From NCBI RefSeq assembly GCF_023148685.1, contig NZ_JAHXNL010000009.1, forward strand, positions 62,001 to 126,000: a stretch of 64,000 bases of DNA, read 5' to 3'. Position numbers and translations under genes: made by a program. The notes beneath the pieces were generated by a model. That model made no database searches and had not been told where the DNA came from. It was given only the letters and a program-made list of their open reading frames with translations. Shown here one piece after another: positions 45,137 to 59,558 of this stretch (position 1 is the stretch's first letter; the number at the start of each line of letters is the position of its first letter). Source of the DNA: Georgenia sp. EYE_87 (GTDB lineage: Bacteria; Actinomycetota; Actinomycetes; Actinomycetales; Actinomycetaceae).

Positions 45137-45331
45137 CGCGCGTTCGCACCTCCGTCGTCTCCCACTGTCCTCGGACGGCGACCGGGCGCCACGGACGAAC
45201 GTCCCCGGCGTGGGCGTCCGGCCCGAGCGGTCTGCGGCCAGGAGCGTCCAGCCCCGGGGCGGGACCGGGCCGCCTCCATGCGGCGAGCCCATCGGCGAGA
45301 CCGCGGGCGCATCACCGTTCCGGCGGCGGGG

Positions 45332-46018
45332 TCAACGCCGCAGGTCGGCGCCCGCCGGAGCGGACCCGTGCGGGGCGAACCAGGACGGCAGCAGGCGGCG
45401 AAGGTCCGCGACACCGGCCGTGGTGAGCGACCCGTCCGCGAGCGCGTCCGGCCAGTCCTGCCGCCCGCGCGCCAGCGCCAGCAGCGTCGCGAGGGAGCAC
45501 CGCAGGTAGACGTACCGGCCGGCGTCCAGCAACGGATCGGTCAGGCACGCGTACGGCGGAACACCCTCCTGCAGCACCAGCCAGTAACGCCGATCGTGCT
45601 CGAGCGGCCAGAGCTCCAGCACCACGGGTTCGGCGGGCAGGTGCCCCGTGCGCACCCGCTGGGCCAGCCATCCGAGCACGACGTCGGGGTCGCGCTCCAC
45701 CATGGCGGGGTCGTCGGGTAGCCAGGTCTCGGCCCAGTCGCGCAGGGCGAAGAGCACGGGCATCAGCCCGCCACCGACATCGGTCAGGCGATAGCCGGCG
45801 GCCCCGTCCCGCGAGACGAGCCCCAGCGTCTCGAGCCGCCGGAGCCGCTCGGCGAGCACCGAGCGGGAGATGTGGCCCGGCAGGGAACGGATCAGCTCGT
45901 TGAAGCCCAGGGGCCCGAACACCCCGAGCTGGCGCACGACGAGGAGGCTCCAACGGTCACCGAGGTGGTCGATGGCCTTGGTGAAGGAGCAGTAGCCGGG
46001 TAGCTCCCGCGCGCCCAC
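45332..46018 (-). CDS. HxlR-family transcriptional regulator
   Basis: A protein of 228 residues from GTG 46018. The winged helix with an N-terminal cysteine (LPGYCSFTKAIDHLGDRWSLLVVRQL) is canonical; a C-terminal extension (about 110-228) may sense a ligand. HxlR proteins respond to aldehydes, quinones or redox. It is divergent from the alpha/beta-hydrolase with a palindrome between them. Confidence 0.87.
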   Translation of the reverse strand: MGARELPGYCSFTKAIDHLGDRWSLLVVRQLGVFGPLGFNELIRSLPGHISRSVLAERLRRLETLGLVSRDGAAGYRLTDVGGGLMPVLFALRDWAETWLPDDPAMVERDPDVVLGWLAQRVRTGHLPAEPVVLELWPLEHDRRYWLVLQEGVPPYACLTDPLLDAGRYVYLRCSLATLLALARGRQDWPDALADGSLTTAGVADLRRLLPSWFAPHGSAPAGADLRR

Positions 46019-46039
46019 CGTCCCAGTCTCCCACCGGCG

Positions 46040-46054
46040 GTTCGAAACGCGAAC
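46040..46054. promoter_or_regulatory. palindrome between HxlR and hydrolase genes
   Basis: GTTCG (46040-46044) and CGAAC (46050-46054) are perfect inverted arms with a 5-base spacer, 22 bases from the HxlR start, in the divergent gap. A likely HxlR operator, judged by position. Confidence 0.4.
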
Positions 46055-46089
46055 TATGCGCACCCTGCCGCCGGACCGATGGTGGGTGC

Positions 46090-47028
46090 ATGGACGTGCT
46101 CCACCACCGCGCGGCGGCGTCGCGGCACACCCCCGCGACGGAGGAGGTCTACCGCCGGATGCTGGACGCTGCCGGCGTGGACGGGCGGTTCGTCGCACGT
46201 CCGTCGGGGCGCCTCGTGCACGTGGTGGCGGCCGGCGACGGACCTCCGGTGGTGCATCTGCACGGCACCAACACCTCGTCGCTCTCCCACCTGATGCTCG
46301 TGGGCCGGATGCCCGCCCTGCGCTCCTACCTCGTCGACCGGCCCGGGTGCGGCCTCAGCGATGCGGACCCGTTCCGGCCGGGGCGCTTTCGTGAGTACGG
46401 CGTCGGCTTCGTCGGCGACGTGATGGACGCCCTGGACCTCGACGCCGCGGTCCTCGTGGGCGCCTCGGGCGGGGGCATCTGGGCCACCTGGTACGCCCTT
46501 GCCCACCCGGAGCGGGTCCGCGGAATGGTCATGCTGGGCTCCGTGCCGACCCTGCCCGGTGGCCGGCCGCCCCGCACGATGCGGCTGGCCGCGACCCCGG
46601 GCATCGGCGACCTCATGGTCCGAGCGGTGCGGCCCGGCCGTCGGACGATGCTGCAGATCATGACCTCGATGGGCGAGGCCGAGACCATCGGGCGGCACCC
46701 CGACCTGTTCGACTCCCTCGTCGCCGGCGCCCGCGACCCCGTCGCGACCCGGGCCAACCTGGCTGAGCTGCGGGCGCTGATCTCCCCGCGCGGCATCCTG
46801 CCCAGCATGCGGTTCACCCGCGAGGACCTCCGGCGGCTGGCCGTGCCGACCCTCATGATCTGGGGTGATCGCGATCCGGTTGTGCCGCTCGCGCGGGCGC
46901 GCGCGGCCGCCACCGAGATCCCCGACGCCCGCCTCGAGGTGCTGCCGGCCGGGCACGTGCCCCAGCTGGGCAACCCGGACCGGGTGGCCGCGCTGCTGGA
47001 GGAGTTCGCAATGACGGCATGGGAGTGA
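46090..47028 (+). CDS. alpha/beta-hydrolase
   Basis: A protein of 312 residues. Nucleophile elbow GASGGG, HGTNTSS oxyanion region, DRPGCGLSD and the C-terminal WGDRDPVVPL plus GHVPQ supply the Ser-Asp-His triad. Probably an esterase, C-C hydrolase or similar. Likely controlled by the divergent HxlR regulator. Its 3' end abuts the toxin-antitoxin relic. Confidence 0.87.
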   Translation: MDVLHHRAAASRHTPATEEVYRRMLDAAGVDGRFVARPSGRLVHVVAAGDGPPVVHLHGTNTSSLSHLMLVGRMPALRSYLVDRPGCGLSDADPFRPGRFREYGVGFVGDVMDALDLDAAVLVGASGGGIWATWYALAHPERVRGMVMLGSVPTLPGGRPPRTMRLAATPGIGDLMVRAVRPGRRTMLQIMTSMGEAETIGRHPDLFDSLVAGARDPVATRANLAELRALISPRGILPSMRFTREDLRRLAVPTLMIWGDRDPVVPLARARAAATEIPDARLEVLPAGHVPQLGNPDRVAALLEEFAMTAWE

Positions 47029-47029
47029 C

Positions 47030-47409
47030 CTGCGCGCAGCACCAGGACCACCAGCCTGTCGTCCTCGATCTCGTAGCTGACGCGGTAGTCGCCGGTCCGC
47101 GCCCGCCACTCACCCGCCCCGCCGGCGAGCCGGATGGCCGCGGGGGGACGTCTGCCTTGACCTCGTCCCACGGGACGGGCGCCTCCGCCGTCGTGCGCAT
47201 CTCCTCGCGGGCGGCCTCGGCCGCGAGGATGTCCTCCATGCCCTCCGCCAGCTCGGTGAGGCGGTCCAGCTCCTCGGCGTCGACGTCGCCGCGACACGCT
47301 TCCCGCGACGCATGACGTAGACGGGGCGATGGCTGCTCGTCGCGTGCTCGAGGACGCCGGCAAGGCGCTCCCGTGCCTGGGAGACACTCAGCTCCTCCGG
47401 CTCTTTCAT
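47030..47409 (-). pseudogene. relic of a RelB/Phd antitoxin-RelE toxin pair
   Basis: ATG 47409 begins a Phd/RelB-like antitoxin (LSVSQARERLAGVLEHA, VYVMRRGKRVAA). At about 47288 one base is missing; the next frame continues with VDAEELDRLTELAEGMEDIL and WDEVKADV. It then runs directly into the middle of a RelE-type toxin (RLAGGAGEWRARTGDYRVSYEIEDDRL) without the toxin's N-terminal half, and the usual C-terminus and stop are lost. A decayed, probably non-functional module. Confidence 0.65.
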
Positions 47410-47483
47410 GTACGTCTCGTAGGCGTCGTGGAAGTACAGCAGCGTCGCGGCCTGCGACCTCGCACCGGCTTCCTCCGGGACCG

Positions 47484-47512
47484 TTGACGCGCCTCGAAGC
47501 CGTGAGGAGACT
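47484..47512 (+). promoter_or_regulatory. putative promoter of the tectonin-protease gene
   Basis: TTGACG (47484-47489), 17-base spacer, GAGACT (47507-47512). The spacing is ideal and the -35 is good; the -10 is weak. A 45-base leader with AGGGGG leads to GTG 47558. Confidence 0.35.
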
Positions 47513-47557
47513 GATTGCCGTCCCGGGGTTCGCCCATCGAGCGCTAGGGGGCACGCC

Positions 47558-49876
47558 GTGTCTCGGGAGATGCTGGTCTACGCACGCGACACCGCCGCCG
47601 CGAGGACGGAGGTCGCCGAGGCGGGCGGGCGCACGTTGCTGGAGGCAGCGCCGCACCTGCTGGTCATCTCGGTGCCGGACGAGGTGAGCGTCGGCTCGAT
47701 CGCCGCCGTCACGGAGGACCTCTCTGGGCTGGACGAGGACGAGCAGCTGGTCGCCGACGCGTGGCACACCCGGTTCGGCGCCGTGTCCCGCCCGGAGGAA
47801 CGGCAGGCCCGCGCGGCCCGGCAACGGGTGGTCCCCTGGGACGCGCCGGGCCGCACCCCGCCGCAGCACCTCCAGGAGGAGGCGGCACAAGAACGCTCGG
47901 TCACTCTGCCGCCGTCGACCGCGGAGAGCCGCGGCGACACTGCTCGCTCCACCGACACCCCTACCAGCGTGGTGCTCACCGGTTCGGTGGCCGTGGGCCT
48001 CGTGGTGGTCTCCGGGCCGGCCACGCCGCCCTACTGGCTCCCGCTGCACGGGGCGCTCAAGCATGTCTCCGTCAGCGCCTCCGGCGAGGTCTGGGGCGTC
48101 AACGCGAACGACCAGATCTACCGCCTGAACGCGTCCAGCCTCACGTGGGAGCAGATGCCGGGAGCACTGGCACAGGTCTCGTCCGGTTCCGAGGTCTGGG
48201 GGGTCAACGCCGAGGACGAGATCTACCGGTGGAACGGCAGCTCCTGGACGCAGGTCTCCGGTGCGCTCAAGCACGTCTCGGTGGGCGACGACGGCACTGT
48301 CTGGGGCGTCAACGCCGAGGACGAGATCTACCGGTGGAACGGCAGCTCCTGGACGCAGGTCTCCGGTGCGCTCAAGCAGATCTCGGTCGCCGACACCAGC
48401 ACGGTGTGGGGCGTCAACGCCGAGGATGAGATCTACCGGTGGAACGGCAGCTCCTGGACGCAGGTCTCAGGTGCGCTCAAGCACGTCTCGGTCGCCGCGG
48501 ACGGGTCGGTCGTCGGTGTGAACGCCGACGACAAGATCTACCGCTACCTCGGCGACAGCCAGTGGGAGCAGCTCCCCGGCAGCCTCAAGCAGGTCTCGGC
48601 CAGCTCCGCGGCCGTGCAGTGGGGCGTCAACCACGAGGACGAGATCTTCAGGCACGACCCGTCGCTGAGCCTCACGTTCAGCAGCAGCGAGCGGTCACTC
48701 GTCGTGTCGGAGGTACTCGAGGCCCTGACGTACCTGGCTACGGAGGGCGCGAGCCAGAACGTCACCTTCACCCTGGACTGGCACTTCCCCACCGTCGACG
48801 TCGCCACCGGGAACGGACACGACTACGAGCCGATGGAGGCGCCCTGGCGGGACGCCGCGCTGCAGCAGCTCGGCTTCCCCGGCTCGCGTGCCGGGTCTCG
48901 GCAGTTCGTGCAGTCTCTGCGGTCCGGGCTCGGCACCGACTGGGCCTACGCGGCGTACTTCACCAGGTACCCCCTGCACCACTTCGCCTACGCCGGCCAG
49001 GAGCGGCTGGTGATGGAGTACCTGAACGACGGGTGGGGACCCAACGAGATCAACAAGGTGTTCGCGCACGAGACCGGCCACATCTTCGGCGCCGCCGACG
49101 AGTACGGCACCTGCGGCTGCGGTGCCTCCGGGCACAATCAGATCCCCAACAACAACTGCAAGAACTGCACGTCCAACCAGGTCGCGTGCCTGATGAACGC
49201 CAATACGCTCACCCTGTGCCCATGGACCCGAGGCCAGCTGGGCTGGCCCCTGTGGGACTCGGTCGCGGGCGCCCTCAAGCACGTCTCCGTCGGCGCGGAC
49301 GGGACGGTGTGGGGCGTGAACGCCAGCGACAAGATCTACCGCCGCGACGGCAACGCCTGGACGCAGGTCTCCGGCGCCCTGAAGCAGATCTCGGTCGGCA
49401 ACGCGGCGAACGTCTGGGGCGTCAACAAGGACGACAAGATCTACCGGCGCACCGGTGACACCTGGACCCGGGTGCCCGGAGCGCTCAAGCACGTCTCCGT
49501 CGCCGCGGACGGGACCGTCTGGGGCGTGAACGCCAGCGACAACATCTACCGCCGCGACGGCAACGCATGGACGCAGGTGCCCGGGGCGCTGCGACAGATC
49601 TCGTCGGGGAATGCGGCCGCAGTGTGGGGCGTGAACGCCGGAGGGAACATCTACCGGCGCACCGGAAGTTCGTGGACGCAGGTTCCCGGATCGCTCAAGC
49701 ACGTCTCGGTGGCAGCCGACGGCACGATCTGGGGCGTGAACTCCGCGGACAGGATCTACCGGTGGACGGGCGCCGCGTGGGAGCAGTTCCCCGGTGCACT
49801 GAAGCAGGTGTCGGTGGGGGCGTGGGGGCTCGTCTGGGGCGTGAACGCCTCCGACAAGATCTACCGGCTCATCTAG
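47558..49876 (+). CDS. tectonin-repeat (TECPR) protein with an embedded zinc metalloprotease domain
   Basis: A protein of 772 residues from GTG 47558. Residues 1-160 are an unassigned N-terminal region with a hydrophobic patch at about 140-160 and no clear signal. About 163-370 hold six tectonin repeats of about 35 residues (GALKHVSV..GTVWGVN..D.IYR..). Residues about 371-568 are a separate domain with HETGHIFGAADEYG (His504, Glu505, His508) and several Cys, the layout of a metzincin-like zinc protease, with CLMN as a possible Met-turn. Residues about 570-772 are six more repeats. Tectonin repeats form six-bladed propellers that bind glycans or lipids, so this looks like a protease carried between two lectin-like propellers. 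Confidence 0.82.
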   Translation: MSREMLVYARDTAAARTEVAEAGGRTLLEAAPHLLVISVPDEVSVGSIAAVTEDLSGLDEDEQLVADAWHTRFGAVSRPEERQARAARQRVVPWDAPGRTPPQHLQEEAAQERSVTLPPSTAESRGDTARSTDTPTSVVLTGSVAVGLVVVSGPATPPYWLPLHGALKHVSVSASGEVWGVNANDQIYRLNASSLTWEQMPGALAQVSSGSEVWGVNAEDEIYRWNGSSWTQVSGALKHVSVGDDGTVWGVNAEDEIYRWNGSSWTQVSGALKQISVADTSTVWGVNAEDEIYRWNGSSWTQVSGALKHVSVAADGSVVGVNADDKIYRYLGDSQWEQLPGSLKQVSASSAAVQWGVNHEDEIFRHDPSLSLTFSSSERSLVVSEVLEALTYLATEGASQNVTFTLDWHFPTVDVATGNGHDYEPMEAPWRDAALQQLGFPGSRAGSRQFVQSLRSGLGTDWAYAAYFTRYPLHHFAYAGQERLVMEYLNDGWGPNEINKVFAHETGHIFGAADEYGTCGCGASGHNQIPNNNCKNCTSNQVACLMNANTLTLCPWTRGQLGWPLWDSVAGALKHVSVGADGTVWGVNASDKIYRRDGNAWTQVSGALKQISVGNAANVWGVNKDDKIYRRTGDTWTRVPGALKHVSVAADGTVWGVNASDNIYRRDGNAWTQVPGALRQISSGNAAAVWGVNAGGNIYRRTGSSWTQVPGSLKHVSVAADGTIWGVNSADRIYRWTGAAWEQFPGALKQVSVGAWGLVWGVNASDKIYRLI

Positions 49877-49970
49877 TGCGGCCGCCGCGTCGTCGCTGTG
49901 CTGGCGTGGCTGCGGGGACAGCGCGGCGCCCGGGCTGCGTGGACCGGTGCCCCGCCGCAGCGGTCACGCC

Positions 49971-49987
49971 CGGGACGGAGCGTCCCG
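49971..49987 (+). terminator. possible terminator of the tectonin gene
   Basis: A 7-bp perfect stem cgggacg/cgtcccg with loop gag, 95 bases after the stop, no T-tract. The surrounding 264-base gap (49877-50140) is otherwise featureless apart from GC-rich inverted segments. Confidence 0.35.
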
Positions 49988-50140
49988 GCCGCAGGCGCCG
50001 GTACCCGCCGCCGGGCGGCACCCTCCCGGCGCCGGAAGTGTGACGCATCTCCGGCCCGGGCGGTGCCGGGCGGGCGCGCTCCCGCCGTCGTTTTCCGATA
50101 TACCGGTAGAAGACTCCCACCGCCGTCGAAGGACCAGACG

Positions 50141-56039: not shown

Positions 56040-59000
56040 GTGCACCTGCCCGCCCGAAGACTGACCGCCGCGCTCGCCGGCGCCGGCCTCTGCCTCACCG
56101 CCGTCGGCGCGCTGCCGGCGCTGGCCGGCACCGAGCCGGAGGCCGAGACCCTCGCCGAGCTCGTGACCGTCGGCGACGCCGGCGGCCTCGACCTCGACGC
56201 CGACGGCTCCGTGCTCCACGAGGTCTCCACCCAGGCGGTCGCGCCGGGGCTGGACCTGACCAGCTTCCAGCGCCTGGAGGAGAAGGGCTGGACGTCGGGC
56301 AACATCCTCAAGGCCGACCTCACCGAGCCGACCCTGAGCATGAAGGTCCTCGACTCCGGCGCCACCACCGCGCCGGCCACCGTGCTCGATCAGGTCCGGG
56401 GCACCGGGGCGGTCGCCGCCGTCAACGGCAACCACTTCGACATGAACTTCACCAACGCCCCGATCTTCACCACGATCAGCGACGGCGAGATCATCAACGG
56501 CTACAGCCAGGCCTACCCGGCGTTCACCCTCACCGACGGCGTCGCCGCCATCGAGTACCTCTCCGCCTCCGGCACCCTCACCGCCGGCGACGCCACCCAC
56601 GAGCTCGCCGGCCTGAACCGCGCGACCGTTCCGGCCAACTCGATCGGCGTCTACAACGAGCGGTGGGGGAGCGCCTCCCTCGACCGCCCCGCCGGCGTGC
56701 CCGGCGAGACCGACGTCGCGACCGCCGTCGTCTCCGGCGGCACCGTCACCGCTGTGTCTGCCGGGGCCGGCGTGCCCGCGTTCCCCACAGGCGGTCAGGT
56801 CCTGCTGGGCCGCGGGACCGGTGCGGCCGCCCTGCGCGCCCTCGAGGTCGGCCAGGCCGTGGAGGTCACGGTCTCCCCGAGCTCCGACGTCGACCTGGGC
56901 ATCGGCGGCAACGTCCCGCTGGTCCTGGACGGCGCGCTCGCGGACTTCCCGGACGAGCCCGTCGCCGCCCGCACCGTCCTCGGACTGACCGAGGACGGCT
57001 CCGAGCTGCTCGTCGCCACGGTCGACGGGCGCAGCGCCACCGCCCGCGGCCTGACCCGCGTGGAGATGGCCGAGCTGATGATCGACCTCGGCGCCCACAA
57101 CGCCGTCAACATCGACGGCGGCGGCTCCACCACCATGGTCGCCCGCCCCGCAGGCGGCACCGAGCCCGAGCTGGTCAACGTCCCCTCCGACGGCTCCCAG
57201 CGCGTGGTGGCCAACTCCCTGGCGTTCTTCTCCTCCGCCGACACCGAGGAGCTGACCGACGTCGCCGTGCGCCCCGTGCTGGACGGCGAGGACGCCCACC
57301 ACGTCATCCCCGGCCTGCACCGCACCGTCGAGGGCGTCGGTCTGTCCGACCAGCTCGCCGGCACCGACGCCGAGGGCCGGTTCACCGTCACCTCGCCGGG
57401 CTCGCTGCCGAACGGCGCCGACGCCAACGCGGTCATCACCGGGCAGACGAAGACCGGTGCCGTCCTCGAGGGCGTCACGCCCGGCCCGGCCACCGTCACC
57501 TACAAGGCGTCCGGCCTGACCGGCGCCACGAACCTCACCGTGCTCGGGCCCCTCGACCACGTCACCGCCTCGACGTCGCAGATCGCCATGGAGGGCGAGG
57601 GCGACACCGCCACCATCTCCCTCACCGGTCACGACGCCGACGGCTTCTCCGCGCCGATCGAGGTCTCCGACGTCGAGGCCTCCGTCGCCGAGGGCTTCAC
57701 CATCGAGCCGGCCGGCCCGGGCGCCTTCACCATCACCGCGACCACGGGCTCCGGCTCCGCGCTCGCCCAGCTCGAGGTGGCCGGGACCGTGGTCCAGGTC
57801 CCCGTGACCGTGGGCCTGACCACCAGGCCCGTCACCGACCTGGCCGACGGCGCCGCCTGGCGCTTCGAGCAGGCGCGAGCCACCGGCACGCTCACCGTGG
57901 CGGAGGGCCCGGCGGGCCAGCCGGCGCTGCGGCTGACGCACGACTTCACGACGTCGACGGCGACGCGCGGCTCCTACGCCGTCGCGCCCGCGCCCATCCC
58001 CGTGCCCGGGCAGCCGCAGGCGATCACGATGCTGATCGACGGCGACGCCACCGGCGCCTGGCCGCGCCTGCAGGTGCGCGACGGCGACGGGGTGGTCAAG
58101 CAGCTCGACGGCCCGATGGTCACGTGGGAGGGCTGGAAGGAGACCACCTTCCCCGTCCCGGCGGGGACCGCGTTCCCCCTCACGCTCGAGCGCGTGCGGA
58201 TCATGGAGACCCGGTCCACCGCGAGCTACCGGGGCGACGTCGCGTTCACGGACATCGCCGCGGTCGTCGCTCCCGACGTCGAGCAGCCGGTGGTCGCGCC
58301 CGTGCACGACCCGGTGATCGTCACCGACGGGACCGTGGACGGGTACGCCCAGCGGATCGCGGTGATGTCCGACGCGCAGTTCGTCGGGCGGGCGCCCGAC
58401 TCCGACACCGTCGCGGCCGCCCGTCGCACGCTGCGGGAGATCGTCGCCGAGGACCCGGACCTGCTCGTCGTCAACGGCGACCTGGTCGACGAGGGCGCCC
58501 CCGTCGACCTCGACCTCGCCCGGCGGGTGCTCGAGGAGGAGGTCGGCGACGCCGTCCCGTACCTGTACGTGCCCGGCAACCACGAGATCATGGGCGGCTC
58601 GATCGGGGCCTTCGAGGCGGCCTTCGGGCCGGCGCAGAACGTGGTGGACGTGGCCGGCACGCGGGTCATCACGCTCGACACCTCCGCCGGGTCCCTCCGG
58701 GCCGGCGGGCTGGACCAGATCCGGCTGCTGGAGGACTCCCTCGCCTCGGCGGCCACCGACCCCGCGGTCACCGGCGTGGTGGTGTTCTTCCACCACCCGA
58801 CCGAGGACCCGCTGCCCGACGACGCCTCGCAGCTCTCCGACCGGTACGAGGCCGCGGCGGTCGACACCCTGCTCGGCGGCTTCCGGGCGTCGGCCGGGAA
58901 GTCCGTCGCCGCGGTCAACGCCCACGTCGGCGCTTTCCACGCCCGCAGCTTCGACGGCGTCTCCAACGTCATCAACGGCAACTCGGGCAAGTCCCCGGCC

Positions 59001-59558
59001 TCCACGCCCGAGAACGGCGGGTTCACCGGGTGGACGCTGCTCGGCATCGACCCGGCCGACGGCGTGGTCGGCGAGAACCCGGCACCCGTGGCCGACCGGC
59101 TGGACTGGATGCGGGCGGAGGTCCGCGCCCGGGTGGACGCGCTCGCGCTCGACGTGCCGGTCGAGCTCACGCTCGGGGAGACCGCCGTCGTCCGCGGGAC
59201 GGTCACGCAGGACGGCACTCGCGCGGTGCCGGTGGCCTGGCCGATGAGCGCCGACTGGGCGGGGGAGGGCGTGACCGTCGCCGCCGCGTCCGGTGCCGAG
59301 CTCGAGGGCGAGGCGGCGGTGCTGCGCCTCAACCCGGCCACCGGTGAGCTGACCGCCGTCGGGTCGGGCACCGCCACGGTGCGGCTGACCGTCAACGGGG
59401 TCACCGAGGAGGTCACCGTCACCGTGCCCGCGGTGGAGGCGCCCGCGTGCGAGACGCCCGGCTCGGCCCCGACCGGGGCGCCCGGCGGCGCGGGCGAGAA
59501 CACCCAGGCGCTCGAGCGTGGCCTGGGCAAGCCGCCGTGGGGCCGCTGCGGGGAGTGA
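56040..59558 (+). CDS. secreted phosphodiester glycosidase (NAGPA-like) fused to a metallophosphoesterase
   Basis: A protein of 1172 residues from GTG 56040. Residues 1-30 are a Sec signal (RRLTAALAGAGLCLTAVGALPALAGT). About 75-400 are a NAGPA/DUF2233 domain (VAAVNGNHFDMNF, VNIDGGGSTTMVARPAGG, RVVANSLAFF) that removes sugars from phosphodiesters. Beta-sandwich segments fill 400-760. About 770-1020 are a calcineurin-type phosphoesterase (MSDAQF, NGDLVD, GNHE, FFHHP, NAHVGAFH metal ligands). A Big2-like repeat and a Cys-containing tail end the protein. Likely acts on teichoic-acid-like or other extracellular phosphoglycans (inference). Confidence 0.87.
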   Translation: MHLPARRLTAALAGAGLCLTAVGALPALAGTEPEAETLAELVTVGDAGGLDLDADGSVLHEVSTQAVAPGLDLTSFQRLEEKGWTSGNILKADLTEPTLSMKVLDSGATTAPATVLDQVRGTGAVAAVNGNHFDMNFTNAPIFTTISDGEIINGYSQAYPAFTLTDGVAAIEYLSASGTLTAGDATHELAGLNRATVPANSIGVYNERWGSASLDRPAGVPGETDVATAVVSGGTVTAVSAGAGVPAFPTGGQVLLGRGTGAAALRALEVGQAVEVTVSPSSDVDLGIGGNVPLVLDGALADFPDEPVAARTVLGLTEDGSELLVATVDGRSATARGLTRVEMAELMIDLGAHNAVNIDGGGSTTMVARPAGGTEPELVNVPSDGSQRVVANSLAFFSSADTEELTDVAVRPVLDGEDAHHVIPGLHRTVEGVGLSDQLAGTDAEGRFTVTSPGSLPNGADANAVITGQTKTGAVLEGVTPGPATVTYKASGLTGATNLTVLGPLDHVTASTSQIAMEGEGDTATISLTGHDADGFSAPIEVSDVEASVAEGFTIEPAGPGAFTITATTGSGSALAQLEVAGTVVQVPVTVGLTTRPVTDLADGAAWRFEQARATGTLTVAEGPAGQPALRLTHDFTTSTATRGSYAVAPAPIPVPGQPQAITMLIDGDATGAWPRLQVRDGDGVVKQLDGPMVTWEGWKETTFPVPAGTAFPLTLERVRIMETRSTASYRGDVAFTDIAAVVAPDVEQPVVAPVHDPVIVTDGTVDGYAQRIAVMSDAQFVGRAPDSDTVAAARRTLREIVAEDPDLLVVNGDLVDEGAPVDLDLARRVLEEEVGDAVPYLYVPGNHEIMGGSIGAFEAAFGPAQNVVDVAGTRVITLDTSAGSLRAGGLDQIRLLEDSLASAATDPAVTGVVVFFHHPTEDPLPDDASQLSDRYEAAAVDTLLGGFRASAGKSVAAVNAHVGAFHARSFDGVSNVINGNSGKSPASTPENGGFTGWTLLGIDPADGVVGENPAPVADRLDWMRAEVRARVDALALDVPVELTLGETAVVRGTVTQDGTRAVPVAWPMSADWAGEGVTVAAASGAELEGEAAVLRLNPATGELTAVGSGTATVRLTVNGVTEEVTVTVPAVEAPACETPGSAPTGAPGGAGENTQALERGLGKPPWGRCGE

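Follow-up and report, generated by a model that had tools for sequence, protein, structure and literature searches.

The gene and its two propellers

The window analyzed here, a 64,000-nucleotide (nt) stretch of the genome of Georgenia sp. EYE_87 (contig NZ_JAHXNL010000009.1), contains an open reading frame (ORF) at 47558-49876 on the plus strand whose product combines two tectonin propellers with a putative zinc metalloprotease. Coordinates are positions within this window, and residue numbers refer to the ORF, which comprises 772 amino acids (aa), opens with GTG, and lacks internal stops. The GTG start is supported by the sequence AGGGGG 6 nt upstream and by alignment with the start of a relative, a 534-aa protein (L002) from a Phycisphaerales metagenome-assembled genome (MAG) that was found by a scan of genome contigs. 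GC content at third codon positions (GC3) is 0.91-0.95 across all four gene parts; overall GC content drops from 0.743 over the first 153 codons to 0.67-0.69 over the remaining parts (0.735 for the window), a contrast that could reflect either amino acid make-up or foreign origin.

Blade cores of the GVN type occur in two groups of six, spanning residues 179-355 and 585-760, and the DNA likewise shows two repeat arrays, with a 105-base period. The protein matches the Pfam Tectonin family (PF19193) with 448.6 bits (E = 3.9e-135; cut-off 30). In an AlphaFold2 model of the full protein, computed from a two-sequence alignment, each propeller consists of 24 strands forming six four-stranded blades, with a predicted local distance difference test score (pLDDT) of 58 to 96, mostly about 90, when averaged over 10-residue blocks. 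The relative placing of the domains is not predicted, because scores for the whole model are low (mean pLDDT 60.5, predicted template modeling score 0.37). The best Foldseek match in the PDB is tectonin 2 (5fsb; template modeling score 0.88 normalized on the target, root mean square deviation 1.7), which is also matched at the sequence level by propeller 1 (E = 2.3e-45) and by propeller 2 (E = 9e-58). An earlier note on this DNA had described two sets of exactly six tectonin repeats, one on each side of the zinc motif HETGHIFGAADEY, and two complete six-bladed propellers; the blade cores and DNA arrays agree with the repeat count, and the modeled strands, in a fold like that of tectonin 2, agree with the propellers.

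Six four-stranded blades are also the arrangement in the PF19193 lectins tectonin 2 of Laccaria bicolor (5fsb, 5fsc) and fish-egg lectin (4ruq). Tectonin 2 is, however, classed as a hololectin, with no enzyme attached (PMC6272156, cited here, as are all papers below, from part of its text), whereas in the window protein two propellers are fused to a protease, with one of them nested. Propellers 1 and 2 share 60.6% aa identity with each other, versus 38-51% with four stand-alone tectonins (one carried by a Streptomyces plasmid, the other three by genomes of the window's class). We rejected the possibility that propeller 1 is a blade-by-blade copy of propeller 2: no register stands out, and the in-register value was reached in 942 of 5000 shuffles. 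Within propeller 1 there is a 71-base exact repeat (codons 216 and 251), perhaps a trace of recent blade copying. Tectonins are rare in the class, with matches in 6 of 335 genomes (the window's own included), 5 of them above cut-off.

At the sixth site of tectonin 2, hydrogen bonds come from Ser200, Asn216, and Tyr222 and stacking from Trp3 and Tyr222 (PMC6359319); its ligands are 2-O-methyl-fucose and 3-O-methyl-mannose, and it agglutinates certain E. coli (PMC6272156, PMC5238581). When these contact residues are transferred via PDB sequence alignments, Trp and Asn are kept in all 12 blades and Tyr in 11 of 12, the remaining blade (blade 6) having Phe (F364); the position of Ser200 is occupied by Ala or Ser. 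From these positions we infer that the propellers of the window protein may bind O-methylated sugars.

Propeller 1 lies within the protease domain

The placement of propeller 1 becomes apparent from 21 relatives: the Phycisphaerales protein L002, a protein from the window's own phylum found by genome searches (L005), and 19 proteins (L010-L028) from as many genomes of one family of the window's class (f106), which has 28 matched genomes in all. In the relatives, no more than a few residues separate a stretch like GSVAVGLILVEGP from one like SAAERTKVVAEV. The span from GSVAVGLVVVSG to SSSERSLVVSEV is 20 residues in every one of the 21, versus 234 in the window protein; therefore, 214 residues, amounting to one propeller, have been inserted. 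The tectonin core WGVN is absent from all 21 relatives. These alignments place propeller 1 in the interior of the protease domain, where it separates the first strand from the helix that comes next, and propeller 2 outside it, as a C-terminal module (Table 1); the stretches flanking propeller 1 are probably the strand and the helix of one sheet-and-helix unit.

This arrangement departs from the earlier picture of two propellers flanking a complete protease. That picture had assigned the metalloprotease to the roughly 200 residues between the propellers, with HExxHxxGxxDE: the motif is there, but the stretch makes up just part of the protease domain, and nothing had been said of the first ~153 residues. 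The combination of six plus six tectonin repeats with a metalloprotease, which had seemed unfamiliar, was indeed seen in no other retrieved sequence, nor was it recognized in literature on tectonins, snapalysins, M64 peptidases, and lectin-metalloproteases (titles and the starts of abstracts, with subscription journals thinly covered).

Table 1. Features of the tectonin-protease gene and of the segment that holds it
Feature	Position in window	Strand	Remarks and basis
Accessory segment holding the gene	45208..50037		4,830 bases, replaced by 66 bp in congener G002
Phd/YefM-like antitoxin ORF	47025-47421	minus	PF02604 at 23.7 bits, below cut-off 29.8; similar DNA in G004 and G005
Ribosome-binding-like AGGGGG	47546..47551	+	6 nt before GTG start; sequence
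N-terminal region, aa 1-136	47558..47965	+	Common to L002; alignments
First strand of protease domain, aa 137-153, SVVLTGSVAVGLVVVSG	47966..48016	+	Aligned with relatives; predicted strand
Inserted tectonin propeller 1, aa ~154-368	48017..48661	+	Six blades, modeled strands 160-366; alignment, model, and PDB match
Remaining protease domain, aa ~369-563, opening with SSSERSLVVSEV	48662..49246	+	Alignments; profile match to snapalysin
Zinc motif HETGHIFGAADEY, aa 504-516	49067..49105	+	Conservation among relatives
Cysteine-rich stretch: C519, C521, C534, C537, C544, C554	49112..49219	+	Alignment; Met-turn candidate C544-L-M546
Tectonin propeller 2, aa 564-772	49247..49873	+	Six blades, reaching the C-terminus; model and tectonin 2 match

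The protease, its relatives, and the surrounding genome

Residues 504-514 (HETGHIFGAAD) carry HExxHxxGxxD, which fits the metzincin motif HExxHxxG/NxxH/D (PMC12237041), so that the metzincin-type zinc motif reported earlier holds, as HETGHIFGAADEY at residues 504-516. In all 22 close family proteins, H504, E505, H508, D514, E515, Y516, and M546 are identical, as are C521, C534, C537, C544, and C554; the C519 column is common to 2 of the 22 as aligned, and every protein has at least six cysteines in this stretch plus a CxC pair. In a 12-row alignment that includes distant members, the H, E, H, D, and Y remain invariant, and near-invariance extends to the Met and to the Glu that follows the Asp. 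H504, H508, and D514 would be the zinc ligands, with E505 as the base. HEXXHXXGXXD is also the motif of the Asp-zincins, which lack a Met-turn (PMC3890501); by the criteria for the Asp-zincin subclan MA(D), the motif is present in the window protein, and so is a conserved methionine that may or may not belong to a Met-turn.

Pfam scores for the 200-residue protease stretch (cut-offs in parentheses) are 21.7 (27) for Reprolysin_5 (PF13688), 20.0 (22) for Reprolysin_4 (PF13583), 19.0 (27) for Reprolysin_2 (PF13574), 16.9 (25) for Peptidase_M7 (PF02031), and 12.1 (26) for Peptidase_M64 (PF09471), and the NCBIfam snapalysin model NF033628 gives 17.2 against a cut-off of 300. Matches of the L002 and L018 proteins to Pfam are equally weak, and the L005 protease matches only Reprolysin_5. 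The likeness to the reprolysin-like M12 peptidases (PF13688, PF13583) thus consists of the highest Pfam scores, around the zinc motif; the difference is in the third ligand, usually His in those peptidases and Asp here.

Searched against the PDB, a family profile of 12 sequences retrieves snapalysin first (E = 5e-4) and IgA protease next (E = 1.3, not significant alone). With snapalysin (MEROPS M7; 1c7k, 4hx3), the window protein shares HExxHxxGxxD as well as this best profile match, but the snapalysin PDB chain has 132 aa versus about 212 aa of protease here, and the conserved cysteines, the N-terminal region, and the propellers are all extra. In the igalysins (MEROPS M64), as exemplified by the IgAse of Thomasclavelia ramosa, HExxHxxxGxxD precedes a Glu and what may be a tyrosine switch, the Met-turn reads CIM, and E551, C606, C616, and C619 bind a structural zinc (PMC12237041). 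Shared with them are Asp as the third ligand followed by Glu-Tyr (DEY), a CxM in the candidate Met-turn, and a cysteine ten residues after the first (compare C606 and C616 of IgAse; PMC12237041). The igalysin motif is, in contrast, one residue longer, before the Gly, than the HExxHxxGxxD of the window protein, and although E515, C544, and C554 match in position, C619 of IgAse corresponds to T557 (PMC12237041). By the numbering in that source, the IgAse methionine lies 58 residues after the Asp ligand. Judging from these comparisons, the proteins would form a metzincin-like family that shares features with snapalysins and igalysins and appears, by the tests made, to be a member of neither.

Apart from the window's own, 28 of 394 genomes in the class match this family, and these make up 28 of the 35 genomes of f106. 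A profile search of the phylum matched 2 of 396 genomes, the window's own and G391, and the phylum of L002 yielded matches in 4 of 294 genomes (that of L002 included), among them three distant relatives, L032-L034. What stands in the place of propeller 2 varies: L005 has C-terminal BTRD1 repeats (PF17660, a polyglycine hydrolase-like structural repeat; L005:280-1500, minus strand), the 19 f106 proteins have a module of 307-314 aa, and L002 has three repeat units, recognized by eye. The f106 module, for which L018 served as the single example, has a match in the C-terminal portion of a Paenibacillus sonchi plasmid protein (L049:1706-3424) that is annotated as a matrixin family metalloprotease and so carries L018-like repeats on a different protease; a metalloprotease and such a module therefore seem to have been paired more than once.

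Several candidate relatives and origins were rejected. A weak match in G330/L006 (34% over 54 residues, E = 7e-4) is absent from the profile matches of the phylum, and neither it nor L003 (21%) has HExxHxx[G/N]xx[D/H] in any of six frames. Searches for a phage or defense gene returned no phage match and no PADLOC family, and PHROG matches were short, weak, and confined to the repeats; in viral contigs, one distant relative (L008) was found, and a second scan found none. The whole protein matches 11 Streptomyces plasmids, every time from residue 158 on, i.e., in the propellers, and no plasmid-borne homologue was found for the protease alone or for the L002 protein. Separately, L031:2740-5892 and Streptomyces plasmid hits H8-H11 cover four plasmid proteins with weak tectonin-like matches (25-28% identity), annotated as RNase A-like or nuclease-domain; going by H8, the one examined, these look like toxins with a repeat region.

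For the N-terminal region (aa 1-136), Pfam offers no family even at a threshold of E = 1, and its own profile finds no significant match in the PDB. The region is possibly a prodomain; an I9-type prodomain, suspected from the pattern, was rejected, as the sole PDB match of the profile had E = 0.16. The N-termini themselves were judged by Kyte-Doolittle hydropathy over 12 residues, with f106 starts set to the MAGD that these proteins have in common; the L005 sequence is truncated by a contig end. The peak is 1.57 at residue 28 in the window protein, 1.21 in L002, and 0.4-1.4 in the 19 f106 proteins, in keeping, by hydropathy only, with the earlier remark that no signal peptide is apparent; the distant relatives L032-L034 have strongly hydrophobic, signal-peptide-like starts (2.4-3.3). 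The window's genome has three WXG100 matches, which allow for a type VII export route.

No match to the gene occurred in 98 other genomes among relatives, including 8 of the same genus. Among the 9 genomes of the congener comparison, the empty site was read in detail in G002, where the DNA is syntenic on both sides of it. The accessory segment also holds an HxlR regulator, an alpha/beta hydrolase, and the antitoxin-like ORF. Elsewhere in the window, 56040-59558 (+) encodes a 1172-aa protein with an NAGPA phosphodiester glycosidase domain and a calcineurin-like phosphoesterase domain.

A proposed glycan-directed metallopeptidase and its alternatives

The comparisons above establish the architecture, the nesting relative to the insert-free proteins, and the conserved residues. 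We consider it somewhat more probable than otherwise that the protein is a glycan-targeted zinc metallopeptidase, with one propeller nested and one C-terminal, that docks on a glycan-coated surface; its protease fold, catalysis, sugar binding, export, and target are all predicted. H504, H508, and D514 would hold the zinc and E505 would act as the base, with Y516 as a possible tyrosine switch and M546 as the Met-turn methionine; a structural zinc of the igalysin kind may be bound by C544, C554, and E515, and the other cysteines may serve as further ligands or form disulfides. One tectonin propeller would have entered the domain past its first strand, ahead of the helix that follows, and a second would have been fused at the C-terminus. 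Because both propellers keep the positions with which tectonin 2 contacts O-methylated sugars, they could dock jointly, in a many-handed fashion, on a glycan-coated surface, be it that of another microbe, of a eukaryote, or of the cell's own envelope. The nested propeller would fix the geometry between cleft and surface, such that neighboring proteins or glycoproteins would be cut.

MMP-2 and MMP-9 contain three fibronectin-like inserts and a hemopexin-like domain (PMC7290392), and the likeness of the window protein to them is one of layout only: a metzincin catalytic domain with inserted binding modules plus a C-terminal propeller. The window protein differs in having Asp in place of the third His of HExxHxxGxxH, in the kind and place of its insert, and in having no apparent signal sequence, and the resemblance is presumably convergent. 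In humans, hTectonin is the product of the gene TECPR1 and is not known to contain a protease. Its 11 tectonin domains reportedly fold into two propellers on a single chain (PMC2707011). On a broader and only tentative view, an unnamed metzincin family with a snapalysin-type motif and igalysin-like elements swaps a sugar- or protein-binding repeat module between lineages; in the window protein, a lectin propeller would have been grafted into the catalytic domain, where it positions or gates the protease, yielding a bacterial counterpart of the gelatinase layout from unrelated parts.

Several observations weigh against a glycan-targeted metallopeptidase. No protease model of Pfam or NCBIfam scores above its cut-off, and the nearest protease family is not settled because the reprolysin-like M12 scores exceed that of snapalysin M7. 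M546, in the candidate Met-turn CLM (C544-L-M546), lies 32 residues after D514, as compared with about ten residues after the third ligand in snapalysins (PMC3890501). The protease part has pLDDT values below 50 in the AlphaFold2 model (nearly all of residues 1-159 and 368-564), and the model of the L002 protein has a mean pLDDT of 32. By hydropathy, a hydrophobic start is absent from the window protein and from all 20 close relatives readable at the N-terminus, so that export is only presumed. Finally, no further protein with a nested propeller was found among the sequences retrieved by one scan of genome contigs and by genome searches.

The least improbable alternative, although we regard it as unlikely, is that the propellers attach not to foreign sugars but to proteins or to the wall of the producer itself, and that the enzyme is a wall-associated housekeeping or signaling protease. 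Human tectonin domains interact with ficolin, and peptides derived from them bind lipopolysaccharide (PMC2707011, in part), and the neighboring genes that were scanned belong to ordinary metabolism and regulation; against this stand the retained sugar-contact residues (Trp and Asn in every blade, Tyr in all but one) and the accessory nature of the gene, which is without a match in all 8 other genomes of the genus and whose syntenic site is empty in one of them. Rather improbable is glycan-gated activation, in which the nested propeller would serve as a lid or switch that keeps the protease inactive until sugar is bound. The insert does lie within the catalytic domain, and a missing signal peptide would suit a protein that is harmless until it meets its target, but the insertion is far from the zinc site in sequence (aa 154-368 versus 504) and nothing indicates that it reaches the cleft; since nothing places the insert near the cleft, docking is preferred to gating.

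It is quite improbable, too, that the insertion broke the protease and left a two-propeller lectin. That the insertion was found in a single protein, encoded by a gene not present in the 8 other searched genomes of the genus, would fit such decay, but the zinc ligands, the catalytic Glu, the Met-turn methionine, and the conserved cysteines are intact, the frame is open, and the residues flanking the insert are kept on both sides. An assembly or frame artefact is hardly credible: the gene is repeat-rich (its longest exact repeat being the 71 bases within propeller 1), the assembly is in 38 contigs, and overall GC content differs between the first 153 codons and the rest, but both arrays have six blades, the number needed for a closed propeller, a single open frame has uniformly high GC3 in its four parts, and a mis-join of reads is unlikely because exact matches between the two propellers do not exceed 21 bases.

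Compared with its earlier description, the protein is more interesting in its nesting and less certain in its protease fold and export. The protease domain is now known both with a propeller, in the window protein, and without an insert, in the relatives; because insert-free relatives exist, the effect of placing a lectin in a protease is testable by comparing natural proteins. The search has also brought out a metalloprotease family that lies below the cut-off of every Pfam and NCBIfam model and is matched in 28 of the 35 genomes of one bacterial family; these proteins might be passed over by secretome surveys that select by signal peptide. If the propellers do bind O-methylated glycans, then glycan recognition and proteolysis would be combined in a single bacterial polypeptide.

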